Shown here in pieces: positions 4,980 to 20,175 of a stretch of 21,836 nucleotides of DNA (its first letter is position 1; the number at the start of each line of letters is the position of its first letter). The translations under genes were made by a program, and so were the position numbers. The notes beneath the pieces are model-generated. The model had not been told where the DNA came from. It worked only from the letters and a program-made list of their open reading frames with translations, and did not search any database. The stretch covers positions 1 to 21,836 of the IMG/VR virus record IMGVR_UViG_3300022752_000443; one strand, given 5' to 3'. Source of the stretch: a virus.

Positions 4980-5774
4980 TTATAAAAGTTTCTTTATTTT
5001 ATCGACTACATCTTCATTATAACAATCTTTATAATGAAGTTCAAGCAATTTCCATCCTGCGGATTCGATTAAGTCATGACGTTCTTGATAGTACTTTCGT
5101 AATGTTCCATCGCGATTGTAGTGCTGTTCTCCGTTAACTTCAATTCCTAACTTTTTTTCTGGAAAAGCTATGTCTAGTGAAAAGTAGCGATCTGGTAGCG
5201 GTGTAAATTCTTCCTCAAAGAGAACCCCTTCATTTTTCAAATCATTCTTTAGCTTTTCGCAAGGAATGCTAACGAACTTTTCGTTTCTTTTCCAAGGATG
5301 CCTATCAGGATTCTTCGTAAGCCATTCTTTTCTTTTTTTCGAAAGATTCTCTTTTTCTTCTTCCGAATGTTTACGCCCGGGCTTTCCTCTCAACTTTTCA
5401 TGAGCATCTTTATATGCTCCTCGTTTATGCGCTTCTTTTAAAGAAGAACGCATTTTTTCAATTGATTCTTTGTTTAAAGAGGAACTTTGCTTAAGAGTCT
5501 CTTTGTACTTTTCAAGATTTGGATTTAAATCACACCAACGAACATGATTAATAAAAGCAGATCTTACTAAGGTCAATTCTTTTCCGCACCACTTGCACGA
5601 TTTTGTAATCTCGTCAAAGAGATTATTTTTGATCTTTGATCTAGAATTACTTAACGTTTCTAAGTTCTTTTTTCTTTTTGGATTAAGAATACACCAAGTA
5701 ACATGTCCAGATAATTTAGCTTTGTTTTCAAATTCAACCGAGCAATATCTACATTTGAGTAATGTCATACTCAT
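4980..5774 (-). CDS. Homing-type endonuclease: zinc fingers, NUMOD3, Vsr-like nuclease
   Basis: Residues 8-28 (CRYC...HVTWC) and 60-81 (CKWC...HVRWC) are two C2HC-type zinc fingers. Residues about 130-152 (GKPGRKHSEEEKENLSKKRK) match the NUMOD3 DNA-binding repeat of homing endonucleases. Residues 198-250 hold a PD-(D/E)XK-type core like Vsr/EDxHD nucleases: FSLDIAF with D201, GIEVNGEQHY with E212-x-N214, then RHDLIESAGWKLLELHY. AT-richer than its neighbours. It starts inside a truncated tRNA. The first ATG (5774) is given; the second (5768) sits at the usual spacing from an AT-rich -10 and is equally possible. Confidence 0.85.
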   Translation of the reverse strand: MSMTLLKCRYCSVEFENKAKLSGHVTWCILNPKRKKNLETLSNSRSKIKNNLFDEITKSCKWCGKELTLVRSAFINHVRWCDLNPNLEKYKETLKQSSSLNKESIEKMRSSLKEAHKRGAYKDAHEKLRGKPGRKHSEEEKENLSKKRKEWLTKNPDRHPWKRNEKFVSIPCEKLKNDLKNEGVLFEEEFTPLPDRYFSLDIAFPEKKLGIEVNGEQHYNRDGTLRKYYQERHDLIESAGWKLLELHYKDCYNEDVVDKIKKLL

Positions 5775-12562: not shown

Positions 12563-14029
12563 ATGTTCAGCCACAGCGACACCGACTACAACATCGATCG
12601 CCACCTGATCTCATTCCTCCAGGACGCACCCTTCTTCGCGGAAATGTCTCGATACATCCGCAAGACTCCCACTGCGGACCTCCCAACGGCCGGTGTCGCA
12701 TTCGATCCTGAATATGACGACATCACGTTGTACTGGAATCCAGATTTCTTCAAATCGTTGACCGATGCAGAAGTTCGTGGCGTTCTTCTCCATGAGTTCT
12801 ATCATCTTGTCTTCTGCCACCTGACCCATCGGCGCAAGTCTCCTCCCAAAATGTGGAACATTGCAACCGACCTTGCGATCAACTCCATCATCACCACGGG
12901 CGAGAACGCCAAACAAAATGCACTACCCAGAGGTGGCCTCATTCCAGGAGTCTTTCCCCTCCCGCCGGACGGTCGTGAATTCACCAAAGAAGAGAAGGAC
13001 GCCATGCCCCTCGGCTCCCTCATCGAGTCATTCCCCCACGCCCAATCTTCTGAATGGTACTTCACCAAACTGAAACAAAAGGCAGATGAAGTCCGCCAAC
13101 AAATGCAGGACAACTGCCCGGTCCACGGCAAAGGATCCTCTCAGGGAGGCAAGGGCAAGCCCAAGAATAATCAGGATAATTCTGCCGGTGACAACAATGC
13201 AGATAATTCCAAGAATAAATCTGATGCCTCTGGCGATCACAAGCATGGCGGCGGTCATGACCATGCTGAAAATGGTCCCAAATGCACATGCGGAGAAGAC
13301 TGGCTGGACTCAATGGACGACCACTCAGGCTGGGATCGAATCCCAGAAGAACTTCGTGAGGCGGTGAAGGGACGAGTCTCCAGCATCGTCGAAAAGGCCG
13401 TTCGCAAAGCAGATTCACAAGCCAACGGCTGGGGCAACATCCCATCCCAACTCCGAGAAGACATCCGCAAGTCCGTCGCCAACATCGTCGACTGGCGCGC
13501 CATCCTCCGCAACTTCGTCGGAAGCCTGGAACGTGGCAACAAGACCACCACCATGAAGCGCATCAACAAGCGCTACCCATACATCCACCCGGGCACCAAA
13601 CGCGGCTACACCGCAAAACTTCTCGTCGCCATCGATCAATCAGGCTCAGTCTCCAACGAGATGCTGTCCGCTTTCTTCGGCGAACTATCCATCCTCACGA
13701 AACGAACGTCGGTCACCATCCTCCCCTTCGACTACACGGTCGCAGACAAGGAAATGTTCGAGTGGAAAAAGGGCACCAACCCAGACATCAAACGAGTCCG
13801 CGGCGGCGGCACCGACTTCGAGGCACCCACCAAGTTTGCCAACGACCCCAAGAACCGAGGTAAATGGGACGGCATGCTCATCCTCACCGACGGGGAATGC
13901 AACAAACCCTCACCTTCCCGAATCAAACGTGGCTGGGTCCTCGGTCAAGGATGCAAGCTTCACTTCCCCACCGACGAGATAACCATCTCACTCGACCCAA
14001 ACCCACACACGACCGGCGCATGGCGCTGA
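12563..14029 (+). CDS. HExxH plus VWA protein (DUF2201-like), MoxR partner
   Basis: A 488-residue protein. The N-terminal domain has VLLHEFYHLVFCH with HEFYH at 77-81, a metallopeptidase-like zinc site, followed by NIATDLAIN (99-107), whose Asp is usual in this family. A low-complexity Gly/Asn/Lys/His linker (about 188-240) has many His residues and a CTC near its end. The C-terminal VWA-like domain has the MIDAS residues DQSGS (358-362), GGGTDF (T417) and LTDGE (D443). This matches DUF2201-type proteins, which are encoded beside MoxR ATPases in bacteria. Here the ATPase is at 8362-9495 on the opposite strand. Codon choice is strikingly C-rich. Confidence 0.9.
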   Translation: MFSHSDTDYNIDRHLISFLQDAPFFAEMSRYIRKTPTADLPTAGVAFDPEYDDITLYWNPDFFKSLTDAEVRGVLLHEFYHLVFCHLTHRRKSPPKMWNIATDLAINSIITTGENAKQNALPRGGLIPGVFPLPPDGREFTKEEKDAMPLGSLIESFPHAQSSEWYFTKLKQKADEVRQQMQDNCPVHGKGSSQGGKGKPKNNQDNSAGDNNADNSKNKSDASGDHKHGGGHDHAENGPKCTCGEDWLDSMDDHSGWDRIPEELREAVKGRVSSIVEKAVRKADSQANGWGNIPSQLREDIRKSVANIVDWRAILRNFVGSLERGNKTTTMKRINKRYPYIHPGTKRGYTAKLLVAIDQSGSVSNEMLSAFFGELSILTKRTSVTILPFDYTVADKEMFEWKKGTNPDIKRVRGGGTDFEAPTKFANDPKNRGKWDGMLILTDGECNKPSPSRIKRGWVLGQGCKLHFPTDEITISLDPNPHTTGAWR

Positions 14030-14629: not shown

Positions 14630-14940
14630 GCGTGTCGACCACCGTCTATTGGAGCCTGTGAGGGGTGGTTTTTTGGAGGTGGTAGGGAGTGGTATGAAGT
14701 GGTAAGCGAGTATATTTGTAGAGTGGTGTAGGTGGTGTAGTAGAGATGTGGGTGTGATATGGATAGAGTTGGATGTGTAGGGCTGGGGTGTAGTGTGTGG
14801 TATAGGGGATAAGTTACATTGTAGTAGGTTGGGTAGTATTAGATTGAGTTGGTGTAGGATAGGTGGGGGTTTGTCTAGTAGGGGGAGTCGTAGTTGGTAT
14901 GGGTGTTGTGGTTAGGCGTGAGTTGGGGTGTTGGGTTGAG
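14630..14940. other. G/T-rich, C-poor non-coding stretch
   Basis: By hand count, 14701-14820 holds 51 G and 3 C on the + strand. Several G-runs (GGGG, GGGGG) are present, so quadruplex or R-loop formation is possible. No gene seen. With the C-rich stretch on its left it forms an abrupt skew switch. Confidence 0.8.
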
Positions 14941-14963
14941 TGTTTTTAGAGATTGTCCGCGCC
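14937..14963 (+). promoter_or_regulatory. Repeated upstream element, copy A
   Basis: TGAGTGTTTTTAGAGATTGT continuing CCGCGCC. Nearly identical to 15757-15783. With TTGTCC and TATAGT (14977-14982) 18 bases apart it could be a promoter for the NAD synthetase gene, of a class different from GTGYAAAGT. Confidence 0.6.
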
Positions 14964-16012: not shown

Positions 16013-16088
16013 GCGGGTTTAGCTCAGTGAGTAGAGCAGCGTTTTTCCAAATCGCAGGTCATCGGGGCAGAGCCGATAACCCGCTCCA
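16013..16088 (+). tRNA. tRNA-Gly(UCC) with non-canonical T-loop
   Basis: Acceptor GCGGGTT/AACCCGC, anticodon loop TTTCCAA (UCC), encoded CCA. The T-stem ATCGG/CCGAT is perfect, but the T-loop is GGCAGAG and not TTCRANN. The D-loop is AGTGAGTA, with A at position 18. C56 and G19 are retained. Confidence 0.8.
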
Positions 16089-16144
16089 ACAATCAATCTT
16101 ACTAAACTTGGTTCAAATTCTTTTTATGCTCCATAGTTATAGAC

Positions 16145-17008
16145 ATGGATAACCACGTTTGCAAGTATTGCAAAAAAGAGTTTGAATCAGGCCCATTGTT
16201 GGGATCACATATTAGATCTCATACTAGGAAATTAATCGAATGTGACATATGCCATAAACAATTTGGCGAGAAGCAAATTGAAAAGCATGTTGTTCTTTGC
16301 CTTGAAAAAGAAAAAGCAAGTTATAAATCTTGCGAAAAGTGTAACAAAGACTTTAAGTCTTACTTCAATCGTTTCTGCAGCAGAAGTTGCGCAAACGGTC
16401 ATGTTGTTAGTGGTGAGCAGAAGTTAAAAACTTCGAATACTATAAAAAGTAAATTTTGTCAGACAAAAAAGCACGAAAATCTTTTACGAATAGAAAAAAA
16501 CCTACAACGATTCGTTGAAAAAAGACAAGACAAACAATGCAAGTATTGTAACAGGACTACAAAGTCGATTAACGGAAATCCAACAAAGATTATTTGTACC
16601 CCCAGGTGTCCTGAATTCAAAGAGACTTTATCAAAAAAACTTTCAGCGTCTACTAAAGGTAAAACTGGTGGATATAGAGAACGTGGTGGCAGGGGTCACG
16701 GATGTCACTACAAGGGTATATGGTTAGATTCTACATGGGAATTGGCTCTAGCAAAAAAGCTAGATGCACTAGGCGTTCTTTGGGAAAGAGATACTGGAAA
16801 GCATAAGTTTGATTACGTTGATCAGAACGGTGAGTTGAGGAATTACTTTCCAGATTTCTACCTTCCAAATCAAAGTCTTTACATAGAAGTTAAAGGATAC
16901 TGGACTGTAGAGACTAAATTTAAAATGTCTTCTGTAAAAAAAAGACATAAACATATAAGTTTATTGATATTAGAATCTATTGAAGAAATTGAAAATTTGA
17001 AACTATAG
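16145..17008 (+). CDS. Homing-type endonuclease: four zinc fingers plus PD-(D/E)XK
   Basis: A 287-residue protein. The N-terminal half has four Cys/His clusters: CKYC...HIRSH (6-25), CDIC...HVVLC (33-52), CEKC...CSRSC (63-82) and CKYC...CTPRC (132-155). The C-terminal nuclease has E199 (STWELAL), PDFYL (P236-D237) and IEVKGYW (E248-x-K250), a PD-(D/E)XK active site like TnsA or homing nucleases. It is AT-rich with AT-rich codons, unlike its surroundings, and sits between tRNA-Gly and tRNA-Ser. The leaderless ATG follows ATAGTT by six bases, as in the nuclease at 19504. Confidence 0.85.
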   Translation: MDNHVCKYCKKEFESGPLLGSHIRSHTRKLIECDICHKQFGEKQIEKHVVLCLEKEKASYKSCEKCNKDFKSYFNRFCSRSCANGHVVSGEQKLKTSNTIKSKFCQTKKHENLLRIEKNLQRFVEKRQDKQCKYCNRTTKSINGNPTKIICTPRCPEFKETLSKKLSASTKGKTGGYRERGGRGHGCHYKGIWLDSTWELALAKKLDALGVLWERDTGKHKFDYVDQNGELRNYFPDFYLPNQSLYIEVKGYWTVETKFKMSSVKKRHKHISLLILESIEEIENLKL

Positions 17009-17012
17009 CTTT

Positions 17013-17099
17013 GGAAGTGTGTCAGAGTGGCCGATTGAAACCGCCTGGAACGCGGTTGTACTGTAAAAGGTACCGTGGGTTCGAATCCCACCGCTTCCT
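17013..17099 (+). tRNA. tRNA-Ser(GGA)
   Basis: Acceptor GGAAGTG/CGCTTCC, anticodon loop CTGGAAC (GGA), long variable arm, T-arm GTGGG-TTCGAAT-CCCAC. CCA not encoded; one base separates it from tRNA-Gln. Confidence 0.94.
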
Positions 17100-17100
17100 C

Positions 17101-17175
17101 TGAGGTGTAGCGTAATGGCAACGCGCCAGACTTTGAATCTGTCCGATGTAGGTTCGACTCCTGCCACCTCTACCA
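17101..17175 (+). tRNA. tRNA-Gln(UUG)
   Basis: Anticodon loop CTTTGAA (UUG), D-loop with GG, T-arm GTAGG-TTCGACT-CCTGC, encoded CCA. The first acceptor pair is T-T, and the remaining six pair. Confidence 0.92.
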
Positions 17176-17176
17176 T

Positions 17177-17251
17177 GGCCCTATCGACCACTGGCTAAGT
17201 CGTCGCCCTTTCAAGGCGAAGAACCGGGATCGATACCCGGTAGGGTCACCA
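17177..17251 (+). tRNA. tRNA-Glu(UUC)
   Basis: Acceptor GGCCCTA/TAGGGTC with one G-T pair, anticodon loop CTTTCAA (UUC), T-stem CCGGG/CCCGG with loop ATCGATA (A at 54), encoded CCA. Confidence 0.93.
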
Positions 17252-17252
17252 A

Positions 17253-17289
17253 GTGTAAACTTTAACTTGATTGTTTTATATTAAGAACC
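17253..17289 (+). promoter_or_regulatory. Leaderless-class promoter after tRNA-Glu
   Basis: Box GTGTAAACT two bases after the tRNA CCA end, 24-base spacing, TATATT, seven bases (AAGAACC), ATG at 17290. Confidence 0.8.
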
Positions 17290-17508
17290 ATGAATAACGT
17301 CATATCTCTTCTTGATCGTGCCGAGACTTGGAAGTTTTCATACTCCAAGGATAATTTGCGTGTGTATGTATCCAGCCGCGGTCGAATCAAGATGTTCATT
17401 GGAGATGAATCAATTGTAATGGACACGATCGAATCAGTAGATTTTATGGGCCGAGTCTCTAAAATGTACGAGGATGAGTTTAACGTGTTATTCGGGGAGC
17501 AATGTTAA
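17290..17508 (+). CDS. Unknown 72-aa protein
   Basis: Begins MNNVISLLDRAETWKFSYSK and is an alpha/beta protein with alternating strands (LRVYVSSRGRIKMFIG) and an acidic helical end. No recognisable motif. It starts seven bases after TATATT, with no room for a ribosome site, so it is effectively leaderless. It overlaps the next gene by seven bases. Confidence 0.75.
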   Translation: MNNVISLLDRAETWKFSYSKDNLRVYVSSRGRIKMFIGDESIVMDTIESVDFMGRVSKMYEDEFNVLFGEQC

Positions 17509-17696
17509 AAAAAGCTTTATTATTATATGCACTCGCTCTAACGTGCGCTTGCTTTCCAACTAAAAAGCAAAAAAAAATCAAACATCCTTCTGCACAATGT
17601 ATACAAAAAGTTCAAGAAAGATATCTTTACATTGAAAATTGTGAGGAATGGAAACAAATTCCTCCCTCTGACGGACAAGCAATTTTACCACCTTGA
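17502..17696 (+). CDS. Probable small lipoprotein or secreted protein
   Basis: Begins MLKKALLLYALALTCACFPT: two lysines, a hydrophobic core, then LALTC at 11-15, close to a lipobox, with a second Cys at 17. The remaining 47 residues are basic then acidic, with two more Cys (AQCIQKV and IENCEEW) that could form a disulfide. That suggests a lipid-anchored surface protein, possibly an exclusion factor, but function is unproven. GGGGAG lies just before the ATG. Coupled to the upstream gene by a seven-base overlap. Confidence 0.65.
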   Translation: MLKKALLLYALALTCACFPTKKQKKIKHPSAQCIQKVQERYLYIENCEEWKQIPPSDGQAILPP

Positions 17697-17709
17697 CAAC
17701 ATAGATTAC

Positions 17710-17784
17710 GCCGCTCTAGCATAGCGATCATGCACCTCACTTGTAATGAGGATCAGGTGGGTTTGACTCCCACGGGCGGCTCCA
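17710..17784 (+). tRNA. tRNA-Thr(UGU)
   Basis: Acceptor GCCGCTC/GGGCGGC, anticodon loop CTTGTAA (UGU), encoded CCA. The T-loop is TTTGACT (T56) and the D-loop is AGCGATC (A19), a matched change of the usual 19-56 pair. Confidence 0.92.
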
Positions 17785-17785
17785 C

Positions 17786-17868
17786 GGAACGGTGCCCGAG
17801 TGGCTAAAGGGGACGCGCTGTAAACGCGTTGGCGTATGTCTACGGCAGTTCGAATCTGTCCCGTTCCA
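17786..17868 (+). tRNA. tRNA-Tyr(GUA)
   Basis: Acceptor GGAACGG/CCGTTCC, anticodon stem ACGCG/CGCGT with loop CTGTAAA (GUA), long variable arm, T-loop TTCGAAT. CCA not encoded. Confidence 0.94.
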
Positions 17869-17919
17869 CAAAAACGCAAAGTGACTAATAGTTATTAGAG
17901 TTAGGGCGTGTAGTTCGTC

Positions 17920-17995
17920 GGGGAATTAGTTTATTCAGGAAAAACAGTTGCCTTGCACGCAGCAGTGCCCGGAGCGTAGCCGGGATTCTCCACCA
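17920..17995 (+). tRNA. tRNA-Ala(UGC) with non-canonical T-loop
   Basis: Acceptor GGGGAAT/ATTCTCC with one G-T pair, anticodon stem GTTGC/GCAGC with loop CTTGCAC (UGC), encoded CCA. The T-stem CCCGG/CCGGG is perfect but the loop is AGCGTAG; D-loop ATTCAGGAA. Confidence 0.75.
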
Positions 17996-18006
17996 CTGAA
18001 ATCTTA

Positions 18007-18078
18007 GGGCTCATAGTTAATCGGTTATAACAGTACACTGTCACTGTACAATGGCGAGTTCGACTCTCGCTGAGCCCG
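18007..18078 (+). tRNA. tRNA-Asp(GUC)
   Basis: Acceptor GGGCTCA/TGAGCCC, anticodon loop CTGTCAC (GUC), normal D-loop GG and T-loop TTCGACT. CCA not encoded. Its 3' three quarters are antisense to the end of the HNH gene. Confidence 0.94.
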
Positions 18079-18621
18079 CTGAAAAGTTTGAATCTGAGGA
18101 AAATATTTCTTTACGATTCTTCTTACTTGAGTGTGGCTACGATTCATTTTTTTTGCTAATGTCTGTACCCAACCAAAAACTTCGACATCGATTGAAGAGA
18201 TAGCATTTTCCCACTCTTTTAATTGTTCTACAGACAATTTATTTTGACCTCCTCCACGCTTACCTCCCGAAGAACTTGATTTGGATCGTAGTTCATTAAA
18301 CTTTTCATCTCCGTATTTTGCTCGAGTACGAGTGTTTAGATTCATCCAAGTTCCTGATTCTACTTGATCAATGTGGTTATCTCGTGGTGTACCCCAATAG
18401 AGATGTTTGGGATTGCTACATCCGTGTTTATTACATGCATGGCATAGATAAACCTTGTTTTTGAATCCATGAGGAATTGTTGTTTTTAAAAAATGAGCTA
18501 GTAAACCTTTATATTGAACAGAGGTGCTACCCCCAATCATAATGCACTCTTCATTAAGATCTAAATGTTCTCTACGTTTTTCACGTGGAAGTTTGATATA
18601 ATCATCGATATTTTGAAACAT
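18025..18621 (-). CDS. HNH homing-type endonuclease
   Basis: A 198-residue protein with an HNH core of the HNH_3 type: VYLCHACNKHGCSNPKHLYW, with H61, N70 and H73, and GTPRDN after it. The Cys set (C60, C63, C68) probably adds a zinc site. The C-terminal part (QLKEWENAI, then a Thr/Val-rich helix SHTQVRRIVKKYF) looks like a DNA-binding helix-turn-helix. Opposite in direction to its neighbours and AT-rich. Its last 17 codons are antisense tRNA-Asp, so the reading frame runs through a tRNA. The ATG follows TATATA by six bases. Confidence 0.85.
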   Translation of the reverse strand: MFQNIDDYIKLPREKRREHLDLNEECIMIGGSTSVQYKGLLAHFLKTTIPHGFKNKVYLCHACNKHGCSNPKHLYWGTPRDNHIDQVESGTWMNLNTRTRAKYGDEKFNELRSKSSSSGGKRGGGQNKLSVEQLKEWENAISSIDVEVFGWVQTLAKKMNRSHTQVRRIVKKYFPQIQTFQRAQRESNSPLYSDSVLL

Positions 18622-18672
18622 AGATAATATATATACTTTGCAGGTTCAAATTTGAAAGTTCAAAAAAGTTTA

Positions 18673-18746
18673 GGGCCATTATATCAGTTAGTTAGATAGC
18701 CACTCTGATAAAGTGGAGGTCCCCCGGGCAGGACGGGGATGGCCCA
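18673..18746 (+). tRNA. tRNA-Ile(GAU) with non-canonical T-loop
   Basis: Acceptor GGGCCAT/ATGGCCC, anticodon stem CCACT/AGTGG with loop CTGATAA (GAU). The T-stem CCCCG/CGGGG is perfect but the loop is GGCAGGA. The D-loop is AGTTAGTTA (A18 where GG is usual). CCA not encoded. Confidence 0.8.
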
Positions 18747-19414: not shown

Positions 19415-19503
19415 AATATCAATATATTGCACGATGAAAAAAAGTTTTAGAAAATAACCGATTGTTTGTAGGTTCGATTTGTCGGAGCCCAATAGTTATT
19501 TAC

Positions 19504-20175
19504 ATGAAACAATGCGAATACTGCGGTTCTGACAATGATGGCTCTTATGGTTCTGGAAGATTTTGTTCTAAGGGATGTTCGAGAGGTTTTTCTACAAAGT
19601 CTAAAAGAAAAGAGATTAACGAAAAAGTTAGTAAGACGTTAACACTTGACCCATACGAAAAAACCTGTAAACAATGTGAAAAGAAATTTTCTACAAAAAA
19701 GAAGCATAAAAAGTTTTGCTCACATCAATGTGCTATCAATCATCAGCATTCCGATCCAACTGTTCTAGAAAAATGGAGAGTTTCTAGATTAAAAGAAATC
19801 GAAAAGGGAAACATCGGATACGGCATAAAAACGTCGTATGAAGGAATTCGATGCGACTCTGCTTTAGAGTATGCCTTTTTGAAATGGTACCTCGAACAAC
19901 ATCCAAATTCGAAAATTGAAAGATTCAAGGGTTATCTTGAGGGGGAAGGTATTAAGTACCAACCTGATTTCATTATTGACGGGAAGATTATCGTTGAAGT
20001 AAAATACACTTCTCCTTACGTTGGTGATAAGCTTTCTGATAAATGGAAAACTTATATTTCTACGCAAGAAGCAAAAAAGAAACTTTTATCCAAACATGAA
20101 CATCTCTGGATTACCGAAAAGGATATCGGACGCAAGTTCTATAGAAAGTGTTTGGATGAAATAAAAAAGCTCTAG
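19504..20175 (+). CDS. Homing-type endonuclease: zinc fingers plus PD-(D/E)XK
   Basis: A 223-residue protein. Two Cys clusters (CEYC...CSKGC at 4-25 and CKQC...CSHQC at 55-76) form zinc fingers of the same kind as in the nuclease at 16145. The C-terminal nuclease has SALEYAF (E122), YQPDF (P154-D155) and VEVKY (E165-x-K167), a PD-(D/E)XK core. The start at 19504 follows ATAGTT by six bases, matching the other nuclease's start context; the longer upstream frame lies in tRNA-like debris. AT-rich, with AT-rich codons. It sits between the tRNA-Ile region and tRNA-Lys. Confidence 0.85.
   Translation: MKQCEYCGSDNDGSYGSGRFCSKGCSRGFSTKSKRKEINEKVSKTLTLDPYEKTCKQCEKKFSTKKKHKKFCSHQCAINHQHSDPTVLEKWRVSRLKEIEKGNIGYGIKTSYEGIRCDSALEYAFLKWYLEQHPNSKIERFKGYLEGEGIKYQPDFIIDGKIIVEVKYTSPYVGDKLSDKWKTYISTQEAKKKLLSKHEHLWITEKDIGRKFYRKCLDEIKKL

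Follow-up and report, generated by a model that had tools for sequence, protein, structure and literature searches.

The contact between G18 of the D-loop and pseudouridine 55 (Ψ55) of the T-loop, at the elbow of tRNA, is taught among the most conserved contacts in biology. Departures from the consensus of the two loops are known from the staphylococcal cell-wall glycyl-tRNAs, which have an altered T-loop, have lost the GG at positions 18-19, and avoid EF-Tu. Here we describe three tRNA genes, for glycine, isoleucine, and alanine, in the 21,836-nt IMG/VR virus record IMGVR_UViG_3300022752_000443 (positions 1-21,836, the whole stretch analysed, called the window below), in which A18 and G55 stand in place of G18 and U55. 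Their sequences, together with those of similar genes elsewhere, point to intact tRNAs that very likely take part in translation and have an elbow of a different but compensated kind.

In the canonical elbow, base 18 pairs with Ψ55 while lying intercalated between bases 57 and 58 (PMC4810234, PMC7912444); modifications are made at positions 18, 54, and 55 (PMC7912444). T-loops outside tRNA often have the sequence UGNRA, whose G contacts an A from outside the loop to give a composite GNRA fold (PMC2258182). Eukaryotic tRNA-Ala can have unusual 54/58 and 15/48 pairs (PMC7566577), and thus shares with some of the tRNAs described here an A54/A58 combination alongside another elbow change; the searched passages of that paper do not mention A18/G55, however, and report its unusual pairs to be absent from bacteria and archaea. 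A text search of the open-access literature, with most subscription journals and the classical T-loop selection studies outside it, found no paper on an A18-G55 pair, and in the searched passages of reviews on the T-loop, the elbow, non-canonical tRNAs, and the unusual tRNA-Ala pairs, A18 and G55 are not mentioned together. The pair may have been reported before, and individual A18/G55 tRNAs are surely in databases already: that of Salmonella phage PVP-SE1, discussed below, is annotated as a plain tRNA-Ile.

The genes were read with a scanner of our own, which works from the stems and a handful of conserved positions (T8, A14, A21, T33, R37), needs no T-loop consensus, gives no more than a small bonus for C56 and an encoded CCA, and has a neutral version without a bonus for the D-loop GG. 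The three genes of the window are as follows.

16013-16085 (to 16088 with CCA), plus strand: tRNA-Gly(UCC), a match to the Rfam tRNA model, CCA encoded; D-loop AGTGAGTA at 16026-16033 (A18 at 16030, G19 at 16031); T-loop GGCAGAG at 16066-16072 on T-stem ATCGG/CCGAT; U73 at 16085.
17920-17992 (to 17995 with CCA), plus strand: tRNA-Ala(UGC), found by Rfam and ARAGORN, CCA encoded; D-loop ATTCAGGAA at 17933-17941 (A18 at 17937, G19 at 17938, G20 at 17939); T-loop AGCGTAG at 17973-17979 on T-stem CCCGG/CCGGG.
18673-18746, plus strand: tRNA-Ile(GAU), found by the T-loop-agnostic scan only, no CCA encoded; D-loop AGTTAGTTA at 18686-18694 (A18 at 18690, G19 at 18691); T-loop GGCAGGA at 18727-18733 on T-stem CCCCG/CGGGG.

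This parsing bears out what the first-pass annotation had noticed, namely that the T-stems are perfect and that bases 54, 55, and 58 of the T-loops are off consensus, while C56, and with it G19, is retained in all three. Like canonical bacterial tRNAs, these have the cloverleaf, a 7-base T-loop, the G19-C56 and G53-C61 pairs, and the charging determinants; they differ in having A18/G55 for G18/U55, and G54/G58 (Gly and Ile) or A54/U58 (Ala) for T54/A58. The A18, with G19 kept, is plain in Gly and Ile, as had been claimed, and the suggestion that Ala can be read likewise can be strengthened: A18-G19-G20 appears to be the better reading of its D-loop, because the alanine determinant G20 (PMC9976931, Table 1) is then kept and because a tRNA-Ile from locus L202, whose D-loop ATTCAGTTA is unambiguous, has the similar T-loop AGCATAG. 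Wrong numbering of the D-loop was excluded, since a comparison of AGTNAGTA loops with AGTNGGTA fixes A18-G19 and leaves ambiguity only in Ala-type CAGG loops. A shifted T-stem was also rejected; a GGC/GCC hairpin is possible for GGCAGAG followed by CC but impossible for GGCAGAA or GGCAGGA, and is not a conserved structure.

Scans of IMG/VR show how closely the two positions are tied. When a D-arm with A18 was the key and the T-loop was left free (scan A), G55 was present in 48 of 55 parsed genes, or 38 of the 43 distinct viral ones; when a GGCAGR T-arm was the key and the D-loop was left free (scan B), all 22 parsed tRNAs had A18, several of these being near-identical Thr genes. A control scan with the same D-arm as scan A, but with G18, returned U55 in 105 of 105 distinct tRNAs. 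No tRNA combining G18 in that D-arm with a GGCAG T-loop was seen, and a search of IMG/VR for G18 together with GGGCAG gave 8 matches, 3 of which parse as tRNA, all with TTC. Among tRNAs without either search pattern, bases 18-19 and 55 are GG with U55 in 527, GG with G55 in 5, AG with U55 in 1, and AG with G55 in 71. All five GG/G55 exceptions, one of which is the Ala gene of the window, hold an AG step and are readable as A18-G19. Chance is a very poor account of this recurrence (Fisher p = 3e-85, a rough guide because the genes are not independent). The 168 A18/G55 tRNAs collected come from 100 loci and cover 36 anticodons and 19 amino acids. In tRNAs found without the motif as the key, position 18 predicts position 55 almost perfectly, G18 going with U55 and A18 with G55.

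Orthologues, in which the gene is held nearly constant, make the strongest case for a joint change at the two positions. The relative L020, a 211-kb contig, has flanks 98% identical to those of the window and a tRNA island 88% identical. The gene compared is:

17177-17251, plus strand: tRNA-Glu(UUC), G18/U55, with D-loop ACTGGCTA and T-loop ATCGATA.

Its counterpart in L020 is A18/G55, with D-loop ACGTCAGCTA and T-loop GGCAGCA, whereas outside the loops the two genes are 96% identical, with one T-stem pair compensated. A second case comes from cultured Vequintavirinae. An initial BLAST for cultured examples gave canonical tRNAs only; these phages were found later, by way of PVP-SE1. Their tRNA-Ile genes resemble each other closely in the stems, mostly share one anticodon loop, and match PVP-SE1 at 40 to 49 of 49 positions outside the loops. 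A18 accompanies AGCAAAG in PVP-SE1 and Klebsiella phage K18PH07C1, and GGCAGAG in Escherichia phage Av-05; G18 accompanies TTCAAGC or TTCGATC in Klebsiella phages K54_rec2 and DP and Escherichia phage LNA4. The PVP-SE1 gene (L615, 3391-3466) also has C33 instead of the near-universal U33, in a CCGATAA loop, a feature common to its relatives of both elbow states. The two-way covariation and the orthologue pairs that switch both loops strongly support the first-pass proposal that the G18-Ψ55 contact is replaced by A18-G55 with 19-56 kept.

How such an elbow might be built is suggested by the UGNRA loops. In place of G18, A18 would be inserted from the D-loop between T-loop bases 57 and 58 and would pair with G55 instead of Ψ55, leaving G19-C56 unchanged. 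The geometry would most likely be a sheared-type G-A, as in UGNRA T-loops, so that G55-C56-R57 and A18 would form a composite GNRA fold, with a 54/58 trans pair that is U-A or a substitute (G-G, A-U, A-A, or C-C). The Gly, Ile, and Ala tRNAs of the window have the G at loop position 2 (G55), the purine at position 4 (R57), and the outside A (A18) of the UGNRA lonepair triloop (PMC2258182); they lack the U at position 1 and the A at position 5, which 96 of 145 A18/G55 tRNAs elsewhere have. They further differ from that triloop in that the loop lies inside a tRNA, the A comes from the D-loop, and some U-A closures have become G-G. The bases at 54/58 in the same 145 tRNAs are U-A in 96, G-G in 35, A-U in 5, A-A in 4, C-C in 3, and C-A in 2, and G-G is found in none of 376 G18/U55 tRNAs. 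Since they have A18 and G55, these tRNAs have no Gm18 and no Ψ55, and wherever base 54 is not U they have no T54.

The neighbouring 19-56 contact is also variable, and in all 12 tRNAs without C56, position 19 can supply the complement (A-U, C-G, or U-A). One of the 12 lies in the window:

17710-17784, plus strand: tRNA-Thr(UGU), with A19 (D-loop AGCGATC) and U56 (T-loop TTTGACT).

In a Saccharibacteria genome (G003), tRNA-Ala(UGC) and tRNA-Gly(GCC) (L429 and L430) have U19/A56 replacing G19-C56 (AGTTGTTTA, TTAGAGT).

The genes do not look like the remains of tRNAs. The glycine gene has all the listed bacterial determinants (G1-C72, C2-G71, G3-C70, U73, C35, and C36), the alanine gene keeps A73, G2-C71, G3:U70, and G4-C69, as well as G20 in the A18 reading, and the isoleucine gene keeps A73, C4-G69, U12-A23, A35, U36, A37, and A38 (PMC9976931, Table 1; for Ile, minor D-loop determinants excluded). 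Apart from C29-G41 of Ile, the determinants examined in the three genes are thus in place. Stem mismatches number 0.26 per gene in A18/G55 tRNAs vs 0.33 in canonical ones. L020 carries a tRNA-Ile identical to that of the window and the same tRNA-Ala gene with a D-loop one base shorter. Where the window has its tRNA-Gly, L020 carries another tRNA-Gly(UCC) (13680-13758), whose elbow is canonical and whose variable arm, at about 12 bases, is unusually long. The phage collection held no close relative of the window, only distant matches to nadE and to ordinary tRNAs. Decayed pseudogenes would account for weak detection, or none, by standard tools, but the perfect T-stems, the determinants kept, the compensatory pairs, the conservation of Ile and Ala in L020, and the recurrence of the same paired change make decay hardly credible. 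These comparisons support the view that the Gly, Ala, and Ile genes are probably not decayed, and the first-pass argument against loss of function is supported.

Standard tools find only some of these genes. With the Rfam model RF00005 (cut-off 29), Gly scores 49.0 bits and Ala 41.1 bits; Ile falls below the gathering threshold, yet its acceptor, D-, anticodon, and T-stems are all complete according to our scanner. ARAGORN detects Ala in the window and misses Gly and Ile. More generally, it missed 29 of 35 genes of the G54/G58 type (GGCRG) vs 0 of 376 canonical ones, and the tRNA-Ile gene of Av-05 is both unannotated and missed by ARAGORN.

The same elbow is found well beyond phages. A scan of cellular genomes with the A18 D-arm found G55 in 69 of 79 parsed matches, and this ruled out a phage-only phenomenon; the carriers are Saccharibacteria, Nomurabacteria, Omnitrophota, Mycoplasmataceae, gut and rumen Bacilli, several archaeal metagenome-assembled genomes, and some Actinobacteria. 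In one Mycoplasmataceae genome, in which all 33 tRNA matches are accounted for, the sole tRNA-Phe has AGTCAGTA with TGCAATT, and in one Saccharibacteria genome the sole tRNA-Thr(UGU) among 32 genes read has GGCAGAG, both genomes being metagenome-assembled and possibly incomplete. The exact pattern of the Saccharibacteria Thr gene, a very strict one, matched 1 of 145 genomes of its phylum. With a genome's only tRNA-Phe among its carriers, this elbow should be able to serve ordinary translation. Its presence in chromosomes of bacteria and archaea means that it is not confined to phages and that, taken alone, it does not point to escape from defence. Chromosomal tRNA-like genes with C1:G72, G73, and GGCRG T-loops are also present in Embleya, Actinoplanes, Actinomadura, and Micromonosporaceae (L275, L282, L380, and L383), their bodies being similar and their anticodons diverse (Met, Arg, Leu, Tyr); they may be an unusual tRNA family of cultured actinobacteria.

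These findings bear on whether the A18/G55 tRNAs might have a role outside translation, like the staphylococcal glycyl-tRNAs. An altered T-loop and the loss of GG at 18-19 are the hallmark of those tRNAs, and both groups depart from the T-loop and D-loop consensus. However, the cell-wall tRNAs serve one amino acid and are non-ribosomal, which is not the case for a class with 36 anticodons, 19 amino acids, the sole tRNA-Phe of one genome, and G19-C56 retained. A non-translational role is therefore highly improbable.

What is observed in favour of intact tRNAs with a compensated elbow is the intact stems, the charging determinants, the covariation, the concerted switching of orthologues, and the sole tRNA-Phe; that the A18/G55 tRNAs are active in the phage of the window would follow from these. 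Certain points weigh on the other side. A18 occurs with U55 in 5 of the 43 distinct viral genes and in 10 of the 79 matches from cellular genomes, so the switch does not follow from A18 alone. Genes from a single phage or lineage do not count as independent, and A18 or GGCAG patterns were used to fetch many of the tRNAs. The G54-G58 and C54-C58 pairs are predicted from the bases alone, and the tRNA-Ile of the window is without C29-G41 and without an encoded CCA.

How the elbow arose is a separate matter. Under loose constraint, compensatory changes might have drifted neutrally to an equally good A18/G55 elbow of no advantage, an account that shares the structure proposed above and differs only on its origin. 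A background frequency of about 1% (2 of 206 other tRNAs in viral contigs selected by a canonical D-arm), the mixed tRNA sets of the window phage and L202, and the like variation of the 19-56 pair are consistent with drift; on the other hand, several bases must change, and tRNA-Glu switched both loops between contigs with flanks 98% identical. Drift is a serious candidate, though we stop a little short of favouring it. It also has to contend with phages whose sets are converted nearly throughout. A contig of 120,043 bp (G150, the record of L142), T4-like by gp23 and gp20, has G55 in 34 of 34 Rfam tRNA matches, and one of 224,954 bp (G151) in 30 of the 37 tRNAs of its main array, an outcome that change in one gene after another would scarcely produce unless selection or shared ancestry played a part. 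Such whole-set conversion hints at selection on the elbow, not drift alone, and shared ancestry within arrays is also possible. The phage contig of L478 (IMGVR_UViG_3300033153_010718, 18900-24900) has 34 tRNA genes, all with G55, with CCA encoded in 0 of 31 parsed. G151 also carries an amber-suppressor tRNA, anticodon CUA, whose elbow is canonical (L480 182-254, about 132,581-132,653 of the contig), possibly connected with stop-codon recoding.

If selection was at work, the new elbow might have been favoured for escaping something that recognises the canonical one: a defence that cuts tRNA, a sensor of tRNA damage, or a dependence on Ψ55, T54, or Gm18 during infection. The reasons offered in the first-pass annotation (evasion of tRNA-cutting defences, altered use of EF-Tu, or freedom from TruB/TrmFO) are hypotheses; the loss of Ψ55 follows from the sequence, and it may or may not be what was selected. 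No nuclease known to us reads the elbow in a fitting way, though hosts were not searched for one, the elbow occurs in cellular genomes too, and among 30 large open reading frames (ORFs) of G150 nothing clearly acts on tRNA beyond a weak 2'-5' RNA ligase-like domain. The conversion of whole sets and the status of 18, 54, and 55 as modification sites (PMC7912444) would suit such an escape, as would the proposal that phage tRNAs evade anticodon nucleases through anticodon-loop mutations (PMC10264068). Those phage-borne genes are likewise unlike the host versions at conserved positions, but their changes lie in the anticodon loop, and the T-loop and D-loop are not mentioned. Escape from an elbow reader is possible but somewhat doubtful. 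The narrower idea that large phages converted their near-complete sets wholesale because a trans-acting factor (a defence nuclease, a modification enzyme, or a phage product attacking host tRNAs) spares the A18-G55 type is unlikely.

The tRNA genes of the window are interspersed with genes that themselves might have acted on the tRNA loci:

16145-17008, plus strand: free-standing endonuclease-like ORF between tRNA-Gly and tRNA-Ser, with PHROG endonuclease matches and a sub-threshold Pfam zinc-finger.
18025-18621, minus strand: HNH-endonuclease-like ORF between tRNA-Asp and tRNA-Ile, with PHROG HNH matches.
19462-20175 and 4980-5774: further endonuclease-like ORFs among the tRNA genes.

Neither of the first two ORFs is present at the matching junctions of L020, and the different placement of at least two endonuclease-like ORFs there suggests recent turnover. 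Their position beside Gly and Ile would suit an escape at the level of DNA, in which the altered loops destroy a site for homing endonucleases or integrases at tRNA genes. This is improbable, because the D-loop base changes with the T-loop base, which is needless for loss of a DNA site, and because the switch is seen in chromosomal tRNAs as well. Elsewhere in the window, a G/T-rich stretch of about 300 bases with no obvious gene (14640-14950) lies upstream of a nadE-like ORF.

Given the genes missed by ARAGORN, catalogues of phage tRNAs are incomplete; the G18-Ψ55 consensus is built into tRNA detectors. The culturable phages with orthologous tRNA-Ile in both elbow states are a ready test system, and natural tRNAs unable to carry Ψ55, T54, and Gm18 make the role of these modifications testable. 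If a factor does spare the A18-G55 type, the two elbow types would be separable tRNA populations within one infected cell. A second covarying solution, in phages and in essential chromosomal tRNAs, would mean that the elbow is more replaceable than has been assumed.

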